A stretch of DNA of 42,312 nt. It comes from an uncultured Candidatus Berkelbacteria bacterium (lineage in GTDB: Bacteria > Patescibacteriota > UBA1384 > XYA2-FULL-43-10 > CAINNR01). Shown piece by piece: positions 5,791 through 42,222 of the stretch (position 1 is the stretch's first letter; each line of letters starts with the position of its first letter). A model generated the notes under the pieces. The model had not been told where the DNA came from and ran no database searches. It worked only from the letters and a program-made list of their open reading frames with translations. The stretch spans positions 1 to 42,312 of the forward strand of contig CAINNR010000038.1 of the NCBI GenBank assembly GCA_903851235.1. The letters run 5' to 3'. The translations under genes were made by a program, and so were the position numbers.

Positions 5791-6918
5791 ATGTCCGAAA
5801 GGACGGCAATGACGTATGCCGGAGTCGGTGTAGACTACGATGCCATGGATCCGTTCAAGTGCTCTTGCCAGCTGGCGGGACTCGCAACAGCTGGCAACAT
5901 CGCACGCATTGCAGGGGGAGAGTTTCAGGAGTTCGAACCCAGTCGTGGTGAGAGCGCCTACCTGATTGAGGCGAGGAAGAGCTACGTCGCCTTCGTCATC
6001 GAGGGTCTCGGAACCAAGAACCTGGTTGCCGATGCCATGTACGAATTCAACTCTGGTCGGGATAGCTACTACGACCACATCGCCCAGGACACCGTGGCAA
6101 TGATCGTCAACGACATGATCACCATGGGCGCCCTGCCGCTTTCAGTCGCGATGCATTTGGCGGTCGGCGACTCCAAGTGGTTCGAGGATGAGAAGCGGAG
6201 TGGCGACTTGATCAACGGTTGGAAAACCGCCTGCGATCTGTCCCGCTGTACATGGGGTTGTGGCGAGACGCCGACTCTCAGGGACGTGATCATCCCCGGG
6301 ACGGTCGAACTCTCCGGTGCGGCCATCGGCTTCGTCAAGCCCAAGGATCGGTTGGTCCAGCCTCGGAACATCGTCGCCGGTGACGCCATCGTGATCATCG
6401 GCAGTTCGGGTATTCACGCCAACGGACTGACACTGGCCAGGGAGATCGCCAGGGGTCTGGACTATGGCTTCCTGACTGAGTTGAGCGACGGACGCAACTT
6501 CGGCGACGCCCTGTTGGACGCGACGCACATTTACGTCGGACTCGTTGAGGACTGCCTCAACCGCGGGGTGAACATCCACTACCTCGTCAACATCACCGGT
6601 CATGGCTGGCGCAAGCTGATGCGGGCGCCGCAGCCATTCCACTACGTCATCACCACGGTTCCGGAGCCGCAGCCGGTGTTCCGCTTCATCCAGGAACAGG
6701 GCAATGTCCAGATGAGCGAGATGTACGGCAACTTCAACATGGGAGCCGGCTTCGCCGTCTATGTCCCCGAGGGTGATGTCGCAGCCGTGATAGCTGTCGC
6801 TACGGAGAACAACCTGACGGCGCTGAACGCCGGAACGATCGTCGAGGCCGAAGACAAGAAGGTGATCATCAACCCCGTCGGGTTGGAGTACGCCGGTGAG
6901 ACCCTCGCTGTTCGCTAG
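5791..6918 (+). CDS. PurM-like (AIR synthase-related) protein, isolated and G+C-rich
   Basis: 375 residues. Signature blocks of the AIR synthase fold appear in order: the VIEGLGTKNLVADAM block, comparable to the DGVGTK loop of PurM; DTVAMIVNDMITMGALPL, matching the VAMSVND segment; GSSGIHANGLTLAR, matching GLHSNGYSL; and NITGHGWRKLMR near the C-terminal domain. PurM closes the imidazole ring of aminoimidazole ribonucleotide using ATP. No other purine gene is in the window, and the loops diverge from classical PurM, so a related ATP-dependent reaction is possible. The gene has its own promoter, a GGGGAG ribosome site and its own terminator. It is visibly richer in G+C than its flanks, which suggests acquisition from elsewhere. 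Confidence 0.8.
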   Translation: MSERTAMTYAGVGVDYDAMDPFKCSCQLAGLATAGNIARIAGGEFQEFEPSRGESAYLIEARKSYVAFVIEGLGTKNLVADAMYEFNSGRDSYYDHIAQDTVAMIVNDMITMGALPLSVAMHLAVGDSKWFEDEKRSGDLINGWKTACDLSRCTWGCGETPTLRDVIIPGTVELSGAAIGFVKPKDRLVQPRNIVAGDAIVIIGSSGIHANGLTLAREIARGLDYGFLTELSDGRNFGDALLDATHIYVGLVEDCLNRGVNIHYLVNITGHGWRKLMRAPQPFHYVITTVPEPQPVFRFIQEQGNVQMSEMYGNFNMGAGFAVYVPEGDVAAVIAVATENNLTALNAGTIVEAEDKKVIINPVGLEYAGETLAVR

Positions 6919-7965: not shown

Positions 7966-8292
7966 TTAAATCTTGATTCCGCTTTTTTTGATCTCGCAGG
8001 CCAACGGATAGTATGGATCGTTAAAATCTTTTGGCAGAAAAGGATGTGGCTCGATGGCAAGGTCAATTTGCTGGCTGAGACTCATTAGCTTTACTCGTTC
8101 CCCCTGTCTGTCATCGCTAAAATCTGGTGAGACGACGGCTATGTCAATGTCACTTGAGTTATTTGCTTTGCCCTTGGCATAGGAACCGAAAACATAAAAC
8201 GCCGTGATTCCAAAACCGTTATCGGCCAGTAGACGGCGGAAATTTTTTGCGAGACTATAAATTTTATTATTTAAACCTGTTCTTTGATCCAT
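7966..8292 (-). CDS. MNT-domain nucleotidyltransferase (antitoxin of a HEPN/MNT pair)
   Basis: 108 residues. GSYAKGKANNSSDIDIAV (residues 36-53) is the minimal nucleotidyltransferase motif GSxAxG-x(n)-SDID, with D48 and D50 as metal ligands; a third Asp is in QQIDLAIEP (near residue 78), so the catalytic triad looks complete. Proteins of this type (MntA) AMPylate and silence a partner HEPN ribonuclease. The gene overlaps the end of the HEPN gene upstream by 22 bp, the classic arrangement. Its presumed target is interrupted here. Confidence 0.85.
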   Translation of the reverse strand: MDQRTGLNNKIYSLAKNFRRLLADNGFGITAFYVFGSYAKGKANNSSDIDIAVVSPDFSDDRQGERVKLMSLSQQIDLAIEPHPFLPKDFNDPYYPLACEIKKSGIKI

Positions 8293-8654
8293 TTGTAAAC
8301 CTCTTCGGACTTTTTATTCCAAATAAGCGCATATTTTTGTGTAGCTTTTTTATAAAATTGTTCCTTGTAATCGTCATAACGTGCTTCAATATTAAAAGTA
8401 GTGATTTCGCGCAAAACGGCTCTTTGATCTTCGGTTAAATCGAGTCCTGCAACACTGGCGAGCCTGACTAAATCATGCAAAGGCAAAATTTCTTTGTCTC
8501 TTTTTATGATCAGACTCTTAAGAGTTTTTTCAAGCACTAAATGCTACAAAAACAAGGACCAATTGTAGTGACCTAACTTATACATGTCGCCTGCTGTTTG
8601 GCGATCTCGCCCTGCAGATTCTAACCAATATCTTATGGCGTCTTCTTTGCTCAT
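8271..8654 (-). pseudogene. HEPN-domain (HepT-like) toxin interrupted by in-frame TAG
   Basis: From ATG 8654: an N-terminal helix with IRYWLESAGRDRQTAGDMY, then NWSLFL, a TAG codon, and directly HLVLEKTLKSLII, the hallmark of the HEPN fold (PF05168), followed by PLHDLVRLA and the C-terminal FNIEARYDDYKEQFYKK. Everything aligns in one frame, so the gene is full length (126 sense codons) apart from a single stop, probably CAG to TAG. A GTG at 8537 just after the stop could start an 88-residue fragment lacking the first helices. The MNT partner downstream is intact. Confidence 0.8.
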
Positions 8655-9469: not shown

Positions 9470-9496
9470 TTTATAGAGATTGGATTTCCTTGCTGA

Positions 9497-9856
9497 TTAT
9501 TCTTTTACTATGTCTGCTCTATGGATGATATCGGTTAAATCTTTTGCAGTTTTTTCGAGTAATTCAAAATACTGATCTTTTTTATCGTCAGAAATATTTT
9601 TTTCGATAAAGTGATCATATTCCCAGAGAACTAAATGAATGAGTTCGTGCAAAATAATGTAGTCGTCGCGTCCAGTTTCGGCATCACAAATAAGAACTGA
9701 TGCCTTTTTGTTTTCTGTATCAACTTCAATATCTCCGGATTGAATAAAATCTTTGCGCTCAAATTTTTTAATTCTAAAATCGATTTGCCAGCTTCCCAGG
9801 TTTAGGAACCGCTGCCAAAATCTTAGTGACTTTTCAATTTTTTCTTCTCGTTTCAT
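9497..9856 (-). CDS. Small zincin-type metallopeptidase-like protein
   Basis: 119 residues. ILHELIHLVLWEYDH contains HExxH (H70, E71, H74), the zinc-binding and catalytic motif of zincin peptidases, and the length fits short SprT-like or phage-type putative metallopeptidases. The N-terminal half has WQRFLNLGSWQIDFRI, the typical lead-in of that group. A third ligand is not obvious; Glu or His in the following helix could serve. Substrate unknown. The gene is alone and convergent with the mini-gene operon. The ribosome site before ATG 9856 is weak. Confidence 0.65.
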   Translation of the reverse strand: MKREEKIEKSLRFWQRFLNLGSWQIDFRIKKFERKDFIQSGDIEVDTENKKASVLICDAETGRDDYIILHELIHLVLWEYDHFIEKNISDDKKDQYFELLEKTAKDLTDIIHRADIVKE

Positions 9857-9888
9857 ATCAATATATTAATAAATTGTTTATATAGTTG

Positions 9889-9912
9889 GGGGCGACGATG
9901 TTTTGTCGCCCC
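9889..9912 (-). terminator. Hairpin ending the radical SAM operon
   Basis: Perfect 8-bp stem GGGGCGAC/GTCGCCCC with an 8-nt loop, 24 bp after the stop of the 27-residue peptide. No long T run follows, so it may act as an RNA end-stabiliser as much as a terminator. Confidence 0.5.
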
Positions 9913-9935
9913 TGTTGTTCCGGGCGCTGTTGCGC

Positions 9936-10019
9936 TTAGACTTGCCCCCGGCAGCACCGACCGCCATTCGTCGCAGACGATGGCTCAGACGACTTGTTGG
10001 CCTTTCTCAAGACCTTCAT
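9936..10019 (-). CDS. Candidate 27-residue precursor peptide of the radical SAM operon
   Basis: ATG at 10019, 27 codons, TAA. The ribosome site GGAAGGAGGG overlaps the last codons of the radical SAM gene, and the ATG lies 4 nt beyond its stop, so the peptide is translated from the same mRNA. The N-terminal half is basic (MKVLRKANKS), the middle is Ser/Thr/Asn-rich, and the end is NGGRCCRGQV. A Gly-Gly followed by a short Cys-Cys tail resembles a leader-core layout of modified peptides. No homology is claimed; the assignment as substrate of the enzyme upstream is inference from size, position, signals and Cys content. Confidence 0.5.
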   Translation of the reverse strand: MKVLRKANKSSEPSSATNGGRCCRGQV

Positions 10020-10023
10020 GATC

Positions 10024-11319
10024 TTACCCTCCTTCCCTGTTTTCTTCGCTCCGACGCAGAACTCGCAGGAAATCGTCCTTGACATACTTCAGTTCGACAC
10101 AAGGACTTTCCGTTGGTTTCCACTTCCGCTTCATCGAGCAGCCACCCATGCAGATCGGCAGGAACTGACATCGTGCGCACTCGTTGTGGGCGAACGGATC
10201 CTTGGAGATCCAACTCCGCCACTTCGGCTCATCGAGAAGCAGGTTGCCGTTTTTGGTTAAGGCACCGACTTTCTCGCCGGTATCGAAGTTTTCGCCGCAT
10301 TTGTAAAGCGAACCGCTCGGGTCGATGATGAATTGCCCGACCGAATCGACGATGCAGAATTCGTGACCCTGCAATGCGTCGGCGTAAGGTAGAACAATCC
10401 AGCCGTCGTTGGCAGCATCCATGTACATTTTCATGATAATAGATGATGCTTCCGGTGGTTCGAGACAGAGTGGAGCGCATGGGTTGGCATTGGAAGACAG
10501 GACGGGTTTGGCCAGCACTGCGACCTGGTTCTTGAGACCACTTGCTTCAAGTATATCATACAGATCAACAACCCTTGAAGCATTTGGCTTCCAGACATTG
10601 ACGCGGATGCTGACCGGCAGCCCGGCTTCCCTTGCTTGGCAGATGTTCGCAAGAATGGTAGCGAAGGTTTTGCCTCCGCCAACCAGCTTGCGACTCTGGT
10701 CGTGTGTTTCCGGTGGTCCATCAAGGGTAATCTGCAAATGTGCAACCTTGAATTTGGAGAGATAAGTGACCATCTCCGCATCCAGCAGATACCCGTTGGT
10801 AGTTACGGTCACGACATACTCTGTGTTTTGTCGGTCGCACTGATCGGCGATCCAGCTATTTAGCCGGAAAAGCGTTGCTCGTTCAAGCAGCGGCTCGCCG
10901 CCGTACCAATCGATTGACAGTCTGTCGAGCTTCGGGATTCTCTCCAAAAGCATCGACATGATGTTGCCCTCGACCGTCTTGGTTAGGCGTTTCCTACAGC
11001 GTCGCTGGAAGCAGTAGCTACATCGAAAGTTACAACTGAGCGTTGTCATGACTGACAGGATCAACTCGTTCTGTGTCCGCCCGGTTAAGTTCCTGACCCG
11101 GATGACCGCCTGTTCGTCATAGTTGGCATCAACCACTATCCCCAATTCGTGGAATTCTGACCAGAAAGCTGATGGCAGACGCGAGATGTCACGATGTTTG
11201 ATCGCTTCGCGAACTGCATCAACATCTTGGTTGATGACGACCAGAGCGCCGGTCAAAGTGTTGTAGATGATCAAGTCGTCTCCGTCTGGTGCAGAGAGAT
11301 TGTAAGCCGAAAGTTTCAT
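10024..11319 (-). CDS. Radical SAM/SPASM domain peptide-modifying enzyme
   Basis: 431 residues. An N-terminal region of ~90 residues precedes the radical SAM core, whose CNFRCSYC motif (C96, C100, C103) binds the SAM-reducing [4Fe-4S] cluster. WYGGEPLL (138-145) is the GGEP-type SAM-contact motif and TTNGYLL follows. The C-terminal SPASM region has C322, C341, then CARCQFLPICMGGC (C381, C384, C390, C394) and C407, enough for two auxiliary clusters. Such enzymes act mainly on ribosomal peptides or on sulfatases. The start at ATG 11319 overlaps the Cys-rich gene by 4 bp, and a 27-residue peptide follows immediately. The operon is more G+C-rich than its flanks. Confidence 0.92.
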   Translation of the reverse strand: MKLSAYNLSAPDGDDLIIYNTLTGALVVINQDVDAVREAIKHRDISRLPSAFWSEFHELGIVVDANYDEQAVIRVRNLTGRTQNELILSVMTTLSCNFRCSYCFQRRCRKRLTKTVEGNIMSMLLERIPKLDRLSIDWYGGEPLLERATLFRLNSWIADQCDRQNTEYVVTVTTNGYLLDAEMVTYLSKFKVAHLQITLDGPPETHDQSRKLVGGGKTFATILANICQAREAGLPVSIRVNVWKPNASRVVDLYDILEASGLKNQVAVLAKPVLSSNANPCAPLCLEPPEASSIIMKMYMDAANDGWIVLPYADALQGHEFCIVDSVGQFIIDPSGSLYKCGENFDTGEKVGALTKNGNLLLDEPKWRSWISKDPFAHNECARCQFLPICMGGCSMKRKWKPTESPCVELKYVKDDFLRVLRRSEENREGG

Positions 11320-11957
11320 CGGCGACCACCTCCGTTGTGGATTGACTGACTCATCTGGGTCTTGCTTTGGCTGATCGCCGCTCTTCGCTGGCCTTCCGGA
11401 ATTGCCTTCATCCTCTCAATCAATGCCCTAAGAGCATTGACATATTGATCGGATGACGCGTTCCCGGATTTGATGCCATACATCGCATCGAGCGGAGATT
11501 GAACGCCAAGCAGTTCATCAATCTCGCAGTTCCCGCCATGTTTGGGATTTTGGCACAACTTCAAGTCGACCAAAACCCTGACCATGTGAGAGCAAACCAG
11601 TGTTGAACAGCTTGGCGGACGCATGCACGAAAGCAAACAGCCGCGATTACAGAGTGCTTTGCACGGACCGTTGTTCGGCATACGACGTTTTCCGGTTGTG
11701 AAACCGTTCTGCTCGATCGCTTTAGCCCAGTTCGGACCATTAGTCATCTCCTGGGCTTTGGCCAGAGACTGCCAGTGGTCATGTGCCTGGTTATCAACCA
11801 GACAACAACACATATCTTTGTGTGGACGGACTCCAGAGGAGATTGCTCCCATGCTTTCAGTAAAGCAGTGGGCGCAAAGATCCTCGAAGAGTGAGAAGAA
11901 TCTCTTCAGCATATTCTCTATTTCTCGGAACTTTTTCAGCCCTGCTTTGTCTGGCAC
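11316..11957 (-). CDS. Cys-rich protein with YkgJ-like metal-cluster motif, first gene of the radical SAM operon
   Basis: 213 residues from GTG 11957, chosen because CGAGGTG stands just upstream and the frame before it covers the promoter. It has thirteen Cys: CAHC (28, 31), CCC (50-52), and the cluster GPCKALCNRGCLLSC with MRPPSC and LVC (99-122), plus C135 and C144. The GPC…GC…RP..C….C spacing resembles YkgJ-type iron- or zinc-chelating proteins. The C-terminus is Ser/Gln-rich and basic. It overlaps the radical SAM gene by 4 bp, so a role as electron donor, peptide binder or cluster carrier for that enzyme is plausible but inferred. Confidence 0.7.
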   Translation of the reverse strand: MPDKAGLKKFREIENMLKRFFSLFEDLCAHCFTESMGAISSGVRPHKDMCCCLVDNQAHDHWQSLAKAQEMTNGPNWAKAIEQNGFTTGKRRMPNNGPCKALCNRGCLLSCMRPPSCSTLVCSHMVRVLVDLKLCQNPKHGGNCEIDELLGVQSPLDAMYGIKSGNASSDQYVNALRALIERMKAIPEGQRRAAISQSKTQMSQSIHNGGGRR

Positions 11958-11982
11958 GGGAATCACCTCGTTGTAATGTGCT

Positions 11983-11996
11983 GCAGTATATACTGC
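11983..11996. promoter_or_regulatory. Perfect 14-bp palindrome near the operon transcription start
   Basis: GCAGTATATACTGC lies between the proposed promoter (12004-12032) and the GTG at 11957, at about the expected transcription start. Candidate operator for a dimeric repressor. Confidence 0.45.
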
Positions 11997-12003
11997 CAAA
12001 TTT

Positions 12004-12032
12004 GTTATATCAGAAAAGAACAAAATCAGCAA
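12004..12032 (-). promoter_or_regulatory. Promoter of the Cys-rich/radical SAM operon
   Basis: Minus strand TTGCTG, 17 bp, TATAAC, about 45 bp upstream of the chosen GTG. Confidence 0.5.
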
Positions 12033-12117: not shown

Positions 12118-13518
12118 ATGGGGTCAGAAGAAGCACAATCTAGTATGCCGCCACCGTCTCGGATGCCATATGAGGTGAACGGTGTTTATGCCGATCCGAT
12201 CAAAGTAAGTAGCACTCAAATTAAATATTGCCTTTATGCTCGTAAATCAAGTGAAGATGATGAACGACAGGCACTTTCAATTGATTCCCAGATCAAAGAA
12301 ATGGTTGATTTGGCTCAAACTGAGGGATTATTGGTGACTGATATACGACGCGAGAGTCATTCAGCCAAGAATTCGGGAGCCAGACCAATATTTAATGAAC
12401 TAATTGTTGATATCAGAAAAGGGATTTTCGATGGAATATTAACCTGGGCGCCAGATAGAATGAGTAGAAATGCCGGCGATTTGGGGATGCTGGTAGACTT
12501 AATGGACAATGGCAATTTGCGGGAAATCAAAACTCACAGTCAAGCATTGACCAATTCACCAAATGATAAATTTCTTCTGATGATTTTATGCAGCCAAGCA
12601 AAGCTGGAAAATGATAATCGAGGCATTAATGTCAAAAGAGGCATGAAAACCAAATGCGAAATGGGACTTAGACCGAATCAGTCACCGCTGGGATATTATA
12701 ATGATGGCAGAGGAATAAAAAAGATATTCCAAGATAAAAAACGGGCTCCAATAATTAAAGAAGTGTTTGAAAAAGTCGCTTACGAACACTACTCCGGACG
12801 TAAAATTTACGACTGGCTGAAAAACGAAACGACTTTGCGTTCCAGAGCCGGCAAAGTATTAAATCTAAGCGTGATTTACAGAATGTTAAACAATCCATAT
12901 TACTGTGGTATGTTTGAATACCCGATTGGTTCCGGCAAATGGTACAAGGGTGGATACAAACCGATAATCTCAAGAGAACTATTTGACCTGGTTCAAGAGA
13001 AAATGATAATTCCGAAAAAATCGAAGCCGGGGACAAAAGTATTTAACTTCACCAGAATACTAAAATGCGGAAGTTGTGGTTCGGGCATAACTGCACAAGA
13101 AAAATTTAAACGACTCAAAAACGGCTCGATAAAAAGATATATTTATTATCACTGTACTCAATTCTACAATTTTGATTGTCCTGAACCATACACCAGAGAA
13201 GAAAAGCTGGTTGAACAATTATCAATACTTCTAAAGCATATTCCAATTCCGGAGATCTTATCAAAACCGCTTCTTAAACCTGAATTGGACAAGTTTATGC
13301 TAATACATCGGACGATGCAGAATCAAAACAATCAAATGGAGCAGATGAAACAAATAAATACAGAAATGAAAACTGAGGAGGAGTTCGATCTTACAGGATT
13401 TATAGAGTACATTTTCAAAGACGGATTAAGGGAACAAAAAAGGGAACTAATCAGCTGCCTAAACACCAAGCTTTATCTGGAAAATAGGATTGTGACTACA
13501 AAAGAACAAAAAGGATAG
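12118..13518 (+). CDS. Large serine recombinase (site-specific integrase/resolvase)
   Basis: 466 residues. The resolvase N-terminal domain (about 35-185) has YCLYARKSSEDDERQ with the nucleophilic Ser near residue 44, and WAPDRMSRN holding the conserved Arg pair. The recombinase domain (about 200-300) has the PLGYYNDGRG and MLNNPYYCGMF motifs. A zinc ribbon follows: CGSCGSGIT paired with YHCTQFYNFDC. A polar Gln/Met-rich linker and short C-terminus end it. Enzymes of this class integrate and excise phages or mobile elements between attP and attB. It is divergent from the radical SAM operon, AT-rich unlike it, and next to a tRNA cluster. ATG 12118 follows AGAGGAAAT. Confidence 0.93.
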   Translation: MGSEEAQSSMPPPSRMPYEVNGVYADPIKVSSTQIKYCLYARKSSEDDERQALSIDSQIKEMVDLAQTEGLLVTDIRRESHSAKNSGARPIFNELIVDIRKGIFDGILTWAPDRMSRNAGDLGMLVDLMDNGNLREIKTHSQALTNSPNDKFLLMILCSQAKLENDNRGINVKRGMKTKCEMGLRPNQSPLGYYNDGRGIKKIFQDKKRAPIIKEVFEKVAYEHYSGRKIYDWLKNETTLRSRAGKVLNLSVIYRMLNNPYYCGMFEYPIGSGKWYKGGYKPIISRELFDLVQEKMIIPKKSKPGTKVFNFTRILKCGSCGSGITAQEKFKRLKNGSIKRYIYYHCTQFYNFDCPEPYTREEKLVEQLSILLKHIPIPEILSKPLLKPELDKFMLIHRTMQNQNNQMEQMKQINTEMKTEEEFDLTGFIEYIFKDGLREQKRELISCLNTKLYLENRIVTTKEQKG

Positions 13519-13533
13519 AATTTTTAGACGACT

Positions 13534-13559
13534 TTTACCAGAGATGGTAAATTTTTTTT
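13534..13559 (+). terminator. Terminator of the serine recombinase
   Basis: TTTACCA-GAGA-TGGTAAA hairpin followed by eight T, 16 bp after the stop. Confidence 0.8.
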
Positions 13560-13670
13560 ATTGGATTCGGTGATTTTAGCCGAAAAGTTCCAAAGTATTG
13601 GTGGCTTTACGAGAAATAAGACGGTTTCAACCCCTTGCCTAGTCGTTTTAGATGAGCCCTGTTTGACAAC

Positions 13671-13690
13671 AAAAAAAGACCCGAGAGGTC
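13671..13690 (-). terminator. Terminator of the minus-strand tRNA cluster
   Basis: Minus-strand GACC-TCTCG-GGTC followed by seven T, about 65 bp beyond the last tRNA. Confidence 0.6.
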
Positions 13691-13754
13691 ATTATAACTT
13701 TTCTACTGTCTAAATTATCCTTTACAGGACTTGCAAAAAGCTCCAAACAGTTGT

Positions 13755-13829
13755 TGGTACGCCCGACAGGACTCGAACCTGTAACGTAAGTTCCGAAGAC
13801 TTATGTGATATCCATTTCACCACGGGCGC
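13755..13829 (-). tRNA. tRNA-Arg (anticodon TCG)
   Basis: Acceptor GCGCCCG/CGGGCGT, anticodon stem TAAGT/ACTTA with loop CTTCGGA giving TCG, T arm ACAGG TTCGAGT CCTGT, encoded CCA. Last gene of a three-tRNA cluster. Confidence 0.96.
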
Positions 13830-13880
13830 AGAATTATTTTTTTGTAACTCGTTTCTCGTATCCTGGTTATTTTTAACCAA

Positions 13881-13956
13881 TGGGGCGGCTAACGGGAATT
13901 GAACCCATGACTCCAGTGCCACAAACTAGCGTGATAACCACTTCACCATAGCCGCC
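13881..13956 (-). tRNA. tRNA-His (anticodon GTG)
   Basis: Loop TTGTGGC gives GTG. The acceptor has the encoded extra G at -1 pairing with C73, the identity element of tRNA-His, and an encoded CCA. Confidence 0.96.
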
Positions 13957-13992
13957 ATAAATTATTTAACTTCAAAAACCGACAATTAACTT

Positions 13993-14069
13993 TGGTAGCC
14001 CGGATGGGAGTCGAACCCATGATCTCCTGGATGAAAACCAGGTATCCTAGGCCACTAGACGACCGGGCC
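13993..14069 (-). tRNA. tRNA-Glu (anticodon TTC)
   Basis: Acceptor GGCCCGG/CCGGGCT, anticodon stem CCTGG/CCAGG with loop TTTTCAT giving TTC, T arm ATGGG TTCGACT CCCAT, encoded CCA. Confidence 0.96.
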
Positions 14070-17798: not shown

Positions 17799-18860
17799 CT
17801 ACCCGTTCTCACTCCTGGACCTGCGGCTGCCGCCCCTACCAGACTTGGGTTCAGCCGGCGGAACGTCGCCCTCGACCGCTGCGACCACGGGCTCGGGAAC
17901 GTCGCCCTCGACCGCTGCGACCACGGGCTCGGGAATGTCGCCCTCGATCACTACGAGGACGGGCTCGGGACTGTCGCCCTCGATCGGGATACTTACCAGA
18001 TCTGCCTCTGCCTCTGCCTCTGCTGCCTCGGCCTCGGCCACTGCACGAGCGGTAGCCTCTACTGCCTCAACCGCGGTTCTGGTCCGCTCTTGGAGCACCA
18101 GCTCCTGTGCCGTCATCAGGCACTCGGGGCAAAGCTCCTTGCTGCCGTTGGCGGTCCAGATGACCTGGAGGGCGTAAGTCAACTCCTCGGCTGAGACTTG
18201 TGCGCCCCTGCCAAGGCAGGTCTCGCACTCGCCGCAGGTGCAGAACGGGGCGAGTTCGACCAGTCTCATTCTGGCCTCGACCTGTCGCTCCCTGTCGAGA
18301 CGCTGTTGCAGAGCTCCGAGTTCAGCCGTCTCAATCGCCTCGTAGAGCGAAGCCTCCCTTGCCGGTGTCGCCGCCCGGATCCAGTCGATGACCTCGTACT
18401 TCTGCTCTTCACGCTTTCCGGACAGGATGTCGATGAGAGCCTTGGCCGGGGTGAAGTCTGCCTCTGCCTCGGCCTCGTACCAGTCACGAGTGCCGACGAG
18501 CAAATCGCCGCTGTCTCGCTCGATGACGACCACCCAGTCCTGGGTCGGTTTGATCGAGTTGAGCAACTCGACCGTTACTCGTCCGAGACCACGCGCCGGC
18601 GAACCAAGCTGGCTCTCGACGAAACTGGTGATCGGGTGTCCGAACGCCGTCGCCGACAGTGTGGCTGCTGCCAGTACCTCGGTTACGACGACCGGAGTCC
18701 CCGGTCCGAGATCGATGTTGAGGCCGATCTTGGCGCCGCTCTCCAGCCGTTTGTACAGCTGCATCTTGGACTCGCCTTCCAGCTGACCGAGCGGCCGGCT
18801 TGTCAGCGCGAACGCAGCTTCATACAGCCATTCGGCGAACGTAAGCTTGTCGTGTCTCAT
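17799..18860 (-). CDS. Orphan acidic protein with CxxC pairs and C-terminal tandem repeats
   Basis: 353 residues from ATG 18860, chosen for the GGAGGGTCAAG ribosome site. Regions: a mixed N-terminal domain (1-200) with no recognised fold; Cys pairs CTCGECETC and CPEC (about 215-255), possibly a zinc site; a long Ala/Glu helix (AEAEAAEAEAEAD); four copies of a 12-residue unit of the type VEGDVPEPVVAA; and a basic Gly/Arg/Ser tail. G+C is far above the flanks. The promoter with a palindromic spacer (18907-18937) and terminator make it a self-contained unit. Function unknown; a charged tail after flexible repeats suggests an anchoring or binding role. Confidence 0.75.
   Translation of the reverse strand: MRHDKLTFAEWLYEAAFALTSRPLGQLEGESKMQLYKRLESGAKIGLNIDLGPGTPVVVTEVLAAATLSATAFGHPITSFVESQLGSPARGLGRVTVELLNSIKPTQDWVVVIERDSGDLLVGTRDWYEAEAEADFTPAKALIDILSGKREEQKYEVIDWIRAATPAREASLYEAIETAELGALQQRLDRERQVEARMRLVELAPFCTCGECETCLGRGAQVSAEELTYALQVIWTANGSKELCPECLMTAQELVLQERTRTAVEAVEATARAVAEAEAAEAEAEADLVSIPIEGDSPEPVLVVIEGDIPEPVVAAVEGDVPEPVVAAVEGDVPPAEPKSGRGGSRRSRSENG
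17866..17990 (-). repeat. 36-bp coding tandem repeats
   Basis: About three and a half head-to-tail copies of a 36-bp unit (GTCGCCCTCGA…CGGGCTCGG as read on the plus strand) encoding 12 residues each. The first two are identical and the others have diverged. Length variation between strains is likely. Confidence 0.85.
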
Positions 18861-18906
18861 CTTGACCCTCCGGTGTGTCAGAATCTCACGCAACGTCGTG
18901 ACACTG

Positions 18907-18937
18907 GTAATATATACTATTATATTACATTTGTCAA
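18907..18937 (-). promoter_or_regulatory. Promoter with palindromic spacer for the 353-residue protein
   Basis: TTGACA (18932-18937), 17 bp, TATATT (18909-18914) on the minus strand. GTAATATA and TATATTAC (18907-18928) form an 8-bp inverted repeat spanning spacer and -10, a likely operator. Confidence 0.6.
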
Positions 18938-18951
18938 TACCTTTGATCAAA

Positions 18952-18977
18952 TAAAAAAGCTGACCTCTCGGCCAGCC
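18952..18977 (-). terminator. Terminator of the 84-residue gene
   Basis: Minus-strand GGCTGGCCGAGAGGTCAGCTTTTTT. Confidence 0.75.
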
Positions 18978-18993
18978 GGGGAAAGTTGAAATT

Positions 18994-19248
18994 CTATCCG
19001 AGCATCTTAGGGTCGGGAATGAAGTGAACAAGATCCCAAAAGTGACCGCTAAGCGCACCAAAGCCGGTAAGCAGATTCATCGCGTGTCTAATATCTTCAA
19101 TTGAATGGATGACAATAATGTAATTCCCATCATTCATTATTAAGTATTCGGCGCGCAGATATGCAAAGCTAACAGCATTGATTTTCCTGACTATCTCCTT
19201 CAAGTGTTCTGGCATCAGTGTTTCGCCAACCGGAATAAGTCGGTACAT
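18994..19248 (-). CDS. Orphan small protein in its own transcription unit
   Basis: 84 residues from ATG 19248 (AAAGGATGATCGGAT upstream), promoter TTGACT-17-TAGTAT at 19290-19318 and terminator 17 bp downstream. The sequence alternates beta-like strands (AEYLIMNDGNYIIVIHS) and an amphipathic helix (IEDIRHAMNLLTGFG), a pattern seen in small alpha/beta domains. No family recognised. It is the fourth minus-strand single-gene unit in a row. Confidence 0.6.
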   Translation of the reverse strand: MYRLIPVGETLMPEHLKEIVRKINAVSFAYLRAEYLIMNDGNYIIVIHSIEDIRHAMNLLTGFGALSGHFWDLVHFIPDPKMLG

Positions 19249-41307: not shown

Positions 41308-42222
41308 CTACTGTGGGAGGAAAGCCGAAGCCGAGCCACAGTAGGCACTGGAATCGCTGATCGAGCAGGTGTCGAATTCCACCCTGCCATGGCTGAAGTT
41401 GAAGCACGGCACGGAGCCGAACTCGCCATCGGGCCCCGGACTGAACTCATCACCGGCGCAGTCAATCCAGAGGTAGTCGTAATGCTGGAGCCGTTCGGGG
41501 TGAGTCAGGAGCATGGACCCAACTGCCAAGGCTCCAAGCCCGAACTGGTTGGCGTCCATGACCTCGCGAGCCCGGCGAACGGACTCACCACGGTGGAGAA
41601 GACCGAACTGAGCGGCGATGATCAATATGTCGCTCATATCTTGGGCCTCAGTGATCTGAACTAGAGCGCCAGCGGTCCGGGTGGCAACCCGAAGCTGTGT
41701 CGTCTCGATCGGGCCCAAGAGGTAGTCGGAAAAGTCCCGCGAGGCCGCAACCATCGATAGGATCAGGCTGACTCCGGCAAAGTTCTGTTCAGCCGGATCG
41801 GTCAGGTTGGGGAAGAGCTTGGCAGCCAATGCGACAGTCGATGGGATGGCGAACCAGCCCTCGGCGCCTTCGGGGAGGGCGGGCAGGTTTTTGGCGAACG
41901 CCAGGGCGGAAGTCGGGTCGAGGCCGAGTATCTTGGCAAGGCCTGTTATCTGCTCCTCGATCGGCTTCGGACCCGTGTATCCGGGTGGGTAGGTGCAACT
42001 TGAGTCCTTCTCCTCACCGGCGAACCGGTTGGCGCAACGGTTGTCACTGATGAACTTGCCGACCAAGTCGGCCAAGCCGGCAGTCTCGTTCACACGCTGG
42101 GCTTCTCCCTCTAGGAGCATAGCTTTATCGTAGGCATCAGCTATGATGTCCATGAACTTACCACCTTTCTTGTCTCGGTGGGTTACTACTGACGGGGCCA
42201 ATGGACTAGACATCGGAACCAT
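41308..42222 (-). CDS. Orphan G+C-rich protein in its own transcription unit
   Basis: 304 residues from ATG 42222. Two other starts compete: the ATG three codons later (42213) lies 11 nt from the same AGGAGG, and ATG 42153 follows AAAGGTGG at 7 nt. No family recognised. Mostly helical with Ala/Leu-rich segments (STVALAAKLFPNLTDPAEQN, TRTAGALVQITEAQDMSDIL), two clusters of Cys (NRC, SSC; CAG, CFN, CSI, YCG) and a Ser-rich C-terminus. No signal peptide. G+C far above flanks. Terminator present downstream; upstream lies a 34-bp palindrome. Confidence 0.7.
   Translation of the reverse strand: MVPMSSPLAPSVVTHRDKKGGKFMDIIADAYDKAMLLEGEAQRVNETAGLADLVGKFISDNRCANRFAGEEKDSSCTYPPGYTGPKPIEEQITGLAKILGLDPTSALAFAKNLPALPEGAEGWFAIPSTVALAAKLFPNLTDPAEQNFAGVSLILSMVAASRDFSDYLLGPIETTQLRVATRTAGALVQITEAQDMSDILIIAAQFGLLHRGESVRRAREVMDANQFGLGALAVGSMLLTHPERLQHYDYLWIDCAGDEFSPGPDGEFGSVPCFNFSHGRVEFDTCSISDSSAYCGSASAFLPQ

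Follow-up and report, generated by a model that had tools for sequence, protein, structure and literature searches.

Several described radical SAM/SPASM systems resemble the locus analysed here. The Clo7bot maturase CtpM (TIGR04334) represents the top-scoring curated family for our enzyme over its full length, and the precursors of the Clo7bot Cys-rich peptides open with a leader, MKFIKKP, that is comparable to the MKVLRKA of our candidate peptide. Clo7bot loci differ in carrying numerous tandem precursors, longer and Cys-rich, alongside an ABC transporter, and in having no Cys-rich partner protein like ours. Loci in Bacilli, whose enzymes score best against TIGR04463, share with ours a 27–28-residue frame 3' of the enzyme that begins with M[KR][VI][LI]R[PS]A; the Bacilli enzymes and ours all fall below that family's cutoff, and the Bacilli peptides differ from our 27-mer in being Cys-free and ending in VPGNL[NKS]. 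Geopeptide maturases (TIGR04280) have the same enzyme architecture and a different peptide; near a true member of that family (L067) lies a 25-residue frame with Cys-Cys, MKKGVAKKAVLATTCCRIGAANVKL. By both fold and profile, the closest solved structure is that of CteB (5WGG/5WHY), a thioether-forming SPASM maturase with an RRE, which is 17% identical to our enzyme. The substrate of CteB is a longer, six-Cys peptide.

In CPR bacteria, graspetide clusters have been reported as new in a phylogenomic study (PMC8939145), and an antiSMASH survey of CPR-type bacteria turned up chiefly YcaO genes (PMC12153355); in the part of the literature that we covered, we found no paper describing SPASM mini-RiPPs in these organisms. 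Here we examine a 42,312-nucleotide contig of an uncultured Candidatus Berkelbacteria bacterium, hereafter the window, together with a second genome of the same genus (G001). We propose that the window holds a compact RiPP locus, carried on a cassette that occupies different sites in the two genomes, in which a 27-residue peptide is the substrate of a SPASM enzyme and becomes cross-linked; from the sequence comparisons below we put the probability of this reading at roughly 80%. The features of the locus are as follows.

12004..12032, minus strand: promoter-like site TTGCTG-N17-TATAAC, read by eye; coincides with the right-hand limit of the block in common with G001
11983..11996, no strand assigned: 14-bp palindrome GCAGTATATACTGC, between the promoter-like site and the first gene
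11316..11957, minus strand: orphan Cys-rich protein, 213 aa, 13 Cys, GTG start
10024..11319, minus strand: radical SAM/SPASM enzyme, 431 aa, with an RRE-like N-terminal domain in the structure model
9936..10019, minus strand: 27-residue candidate precursor MKVLRKANKSSEPSSATNGGRCCRGQV
9889..9912, minus strand: hairpin with an 8-bp stem, a variable loop and no U-run, 3' of the peptide frame
9497..9856, minus strand: 119-aa HExxH protein (HELIH), candidate leader peptidase, within the conserved block

The Cys-rich protein gene, the enzyme gene and the 27-codon frame run in the same direction behind a single promoter-like site. The end of the Cys-rich frame (11316) shares 4 bp with the enzyme's ATG (11319), a gap of 4 nt separates the enzyme's stop from the 27-codon frame, and the ribosome site of that frame, AAGGAGG, lies within the enzyme's last codons. 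An earlier note on this DNA had described this arrangement and the ribosome site; both are borne out by the sequence, and the arrangement recurs in G001. The promoter and palindrome that it placed ahead of the operon were likewise located. The promoter is kept in G001 as TTGCAG-N17-TATAAC, and the palindrome, possibly an operator, is altered there at a single position (GCAGTATATTCTGC); the TTGCTG/TATAAC pair is absent from the list returned by a consensus promoter scan. Since the palindrome lies downstream of the promoter, the Cys-rich protein probably starts at the GTG at 11957, behind GAGGTGAT, rather than farther upstream. A 49-aa version of the small frame, beginning at an in-frame ATG at 10085, was rejected: its added stretch falls within the enzyme gene and shows Glu-to-Gly and Cys-to-Tyr changes in G001. 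The hairpin predicted to follow the peptide is present at 9889–9912, although it is not a classical terminator because no U-run follows its stem; it possibly divides expression of the peptide from that of the next gene.

Elsewhere in the window, three further islands of ~60% GC (5791–6918, 17799–19061 and 41308–42222) stand out from a background of ~40% GC and carry a gene for an AIR-synthase-like protein and two frames that match nothing in Pfam. A nucleotidyltransferase/HEPN gene pair at 7966–8537 (minus strand) is arranged like an MNT-HEPN toxin-antitoxin system.

The 431-aa enzyme contains a radical SAM domain (Pfam E=4.6e-17) with the cluster motif CX3CX2C at C96, C100 and C103, followed by the seven-Cys SPASM pattern C-x9-15-G-x4-C ... 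CX2CX5CX3C ... C (C322, G336, C341, C381, C384, C390, C394 and C407). The CX3CX2C motif and the seven SPASM cysteines are invariant across 27 homologues. In a structure model with an overall pLDDT of 89.7, residues 7–79 form three strands followed by three helices, an RRE-type topology, with pLDDT ~96 up to residue 70; fold comparison of the model placed CteB first (TM 0.71), followed by anSME and TigE. Scores against the curated NCBIfam models listed all fell far below their cutoffs: TIGR04334 (Clo7bot) was best at 253.2 bits (cutoff 600), followed by TIGR04463 at 222.4 (cutoff 525), CefB NF038107 at 215.8 (cutoff 600) and geopeptide TIGR04280 at 157.8 (cutoff 400). A 41-row tree drawn from the matches listed places the window enzyme and its G001 counterpart together on an isolated branch of length 1.43, with no supported sister. 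By these sequence criteria, the enzyme is an unnamed family inside the known Clo7bot/TIGR04463/CefB/geopeptide assemblage.

We then asked what lies beside related enzymes, using at least 80 genome loci obtained through a contig scan of genomes. Among the relatives listed, six Bacilli enzymes (Kurthia, Parageobacillus and Paenibacillus), ~28% identical to ours and not sister to it in the tree, are followed by 27–28-residue frames of the kind introduced above; in the three of these loci inspected (L031, L034 and L039) there is no obvious partner gene. A second such enzyme, 28% identical to the first, is encoded in the window genome itself; upstream of it lies a 35-residue frame, MERKSRNRVRILKPA...KDSCCGSRK, that contains VRILKPA and has a Cys-Cys C-terminus, and a relative of this second enzyme in G014 has an upstream frame ending ...KDSCCGARK. 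The core [KR][VI][LI][RK][KPS]A, sought within the first 20 residues, was found at 8 loci among 26,882 distinct small frames, namely the window, the second-enzyme contig (C7) and the six Bacilli loci; all adjoin homologous enzymes, and the core occurs nowhere else in the set. The pattern was written after the sequences had been viewed, so its specificity is the useful part. Small frames with at least two Cys in the last 20 residues lay beside 19 of 50 enzyme homologues, compared with 16.7% of random places. Thus the earlier proposal that the 27-mer is the substrate of the SPASM enzyme gains from the restriction of this leader core to related enzymes, and the small frame that it suggested seeking beside homologues is present in G001, at C7 and, among the matches listed, at the Bacilli loci. 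Two of its details fared less well. It took Gly-Gly as the leader boundary, which is unsupported, since none of the related precursors contains GG; and it looked for a conserved C-terminus with a variable middle, whereas across distant loci the N-terminus is common and the C-terminus varies. As in the general class, a short candidate precursor with a conserved leader adjoins the enzyme.

The Bacilli loci merit mention in their own right. Each of the six (L031, L034, L039, L044, L049 and L054) pairs a SPASM enzyme with a peptide of this Cys-free type, with no NCBIfam match, and these two-gene loci apparently constitute an undescribed RiPP family.

The first gene of the operon encodes the Cys-rich protein, for which profile searches found no family. 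No homologue was detected in 380 phylum genomes beyond the window genome and G001, or among the 101 loci examined, and viral contigs searched with this protein and with the enzyme yielded nothing. A distant match in G082 was discarded as spurious because its frame runs on into an inositol-monophosphatase-like gene. The protein had been called YkgJ-like, and in its second half it does have the motif C-x5-RP-x2-C-x4-C; among 6,966 open frames, the only others to carry it come from two of the four loci retrieved for the YkgJ / CxxCxxCC family (PF03692). The protein differs from that family in having no CxxCxxCC block; the PF03692 profile matches neither this protein nor anything else in the genome, and an hhalign comparison was not significant (P=0.044). 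We therefore rejected membership: the motif alone is insufficient, and the label YkgJ-like serves as a lead and does not classify the protein. An AlphaFold model of the protein was unusable (pLDDT 44.6).

The Cys-rich protein could itself be what the enzyme modifies, in the manner of the anaerobic sulfatase and quinohemoprotein maturases that act on whole proteins, with the 27-codon frame a by-product or regulatory element. Its gene is translationally coupled to that of the enzyme and was never found apart from it, anSME is among the enzyme's top fold matches, and quinohemoprotein maturase models score weakly on the enzyme. We nevertheless consider this improbable: the ribosome site of the 27-codon frame is ideal, and the leader core of the 27-mer also appears beside related enzymes without an obvious partner gene.

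G001 carries the same operon at another locus. Its contig shares with the window a block corresponding to 9493–12032 (86.5% identical), which takes in the 119-aa HExxH gene; the flanks on both sides differ, and the only other similarity is a short match at tRNA genes near 3.3 kb. A cassette therefore occupies different sites in these two related genomes. Within it, the 27-codon frame is identical at 84 of 84 nt (0 of 28 codons changed, counting the stop), whereas 155 of 432 codons are changed in the enzyme, the DNA of which differs by ~16%, and 66 of 214 in the Cys-rich gene. The comparison shows the small frame to be strongly conserved at the sequence level, although with no substitution in its 27 codons, coding selection is not measurable between the two genomes. 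In the window, a serine integrase (12118–13518) sits 86 bp from the cassette and may have moved it; we found no convincing att-like repeat flanking the cassette. The integrase is followed by a tRNA Arg-His-Glu cluster, the two together spanning 12118–14069. Beside the G001 copy there is a short frame like a recombinase C-terminus (L005:3557-3730), whose orientation relative to the operon differs.

This distribution bears on a further alternative, in which the enzyme makes a peptide-derived cofactor for a cellular enzyme, as with PQQ or mycofactocin, and not a secreted RiPP. Such a role would suit a small genome and a locus with neither an exporter nor an immunity gene adjacent, and cofactor-pathway SPASM enzymes are distant relatives of ours. 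However, an accessory product fits better because the cassette sits at varied sites and is missing from nearly all relatives, and no cofactor-using partner enzyme is seen nearby; we rate a cofactor as low in likelihood as modification of the Cys-rich protein. It is less probable still, to the point of being remote, that something other than translation keeps the 27-codon stretch conserved, be it a role as an RNA or DNA element or recent gene conversion: although the identical run is 125 nt long and extends over the enzyme's end and the gap, the RNA fold of the coding stretch is not unusual, Rfam finds nothing in the region, and the frame's length, position and N-terminus agree with those of peptides at independent loci. 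Given the specificity of the leader core, the conservation in G001 and the related loci, the reading of a precursor with its maturase, that is, a RiPP locus, is well supported by the sequence data.

Regarding the earlier statement that neither a transporter nor a protease is adjacent, we indeed found no transporter gene next to the operon, but the co-directional 119-aa gene directly after the peptide frame and hairpin encodes a putative protease with the motif HELIH. Its product gives weak matches to SprT-like and M91 families (E=0.13–0.15). Beside phylum enzymes, HExxH genes account for 11 of 69 neighbours compared with 2 of 116 in the background (Fisher p=4e-4), a count that excludes the looser variants HEDTH and HEIIISH (at C7, C68 and C39) and that reflects a post hoc pattern among neighbours not all of which are independent. 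Non-phylum homologues show no enrichment (2 of 127 neighbours versus 5 of 327 overall), and in G003, G177 and G046 members of the 119-aa family also lie apart from such enzymes. The 119-aa protein may therefore serve as the leader peptidase.

In the RiPP pathway that we favour, the short leader MKVLRKA would dock onto the RRE-like N-terminal domain of the enzyme, and the radical cluster, together with the auxiliary SPASM clusters, would cross-link the C-terminal core of the 27-mer. The Cys-rich protein may assist by handling metal or electrons or by presenting the substrate, and the leader would be cut off by the HExxH protein or else by a cellular protease. Our guess, offered at even odds, is that the cross-link consists of one or more thioethers linking the adjacent cysteines with a residue close by; the Cys-Cys in the core and the thioether-forming CteB as best fold match hint at this, although the Bacilli cores have no Cys and chemistry other than a thioether is therefore possible. 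As a further guess, the product is a secreted or surface peptide directed against competitors or involved in host-cell contact.

Other loci in the phylum have related layouts. In the window genome, L010 (G000:C7:1-7116), which holds the second enzyme and its 35-residue frame, also encodes an ABC-F ATPase, a HEDTH peptidase-like protein (Peptidase_MA_2, E=3e-4) and an MFS transporter; it resembles a more complete RiPP locus, in which some genes possibly serve self-protection and export. At L011 (G000:C39:1-3834), the genome's third SPASM enzyme, nearest to the FibroRumin maturase TIGR04136 (253 bits, below the cutoff of 400), is preceded by a 40-residue frame ending in YECACSCACRSK and accompanied by a 251-aa HEIIISH protein. 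L127 and L128 (G124 and G252) have 52-residue frames 3' of the enzyme, MK[TA]LQTMTS...ICCGSSYKEQ / KCCGAAFKEQ, in which the leader and a Cys-Cys-Gly core are kept between genera. Directly 3' of SPASM enzymes at L131 and L140 (G034 and G086), the short frames MKAMIKKLPVYEPCSTCKKSSNCH and ...LKVCNTCRQQSNCH make up what is apparently another precursor family.

A more ambitious and rather doubtful reading is that the phylum has scattered mini-RiPP units that move between sites and lineages, each comprising an ultrashort Cys-Cys precursor, a stand-alone SPASM maturase, a small HExxH peptidase and sometimes a Cys-rich redox partner, and yielding a chemically new, short cross-linked peptide for host contact or competition.

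Radical-SAM RiPP loci as such are familiar, and nothing is overturned here, the enzyme class and its logic being already known; the enzyme family, the Cys-rich partner and the peptide are without a name. The shared leader core offers a simple handle to search for further such loci, and SPASM biochemistry gains concrete additions that can be put to the test, namely the Cys-rich partner as well as the HExxH genes that recur. RiPPs are seldom credited to small-genome CPR-type bacteria, and the phylum genomes that we compared span 0.5–2 Mb. If our reading is true, radical-SAM RiPPs would also be present in such bacteria, with precursors of fewer than 40 residues that escape both gene callers and curated families.
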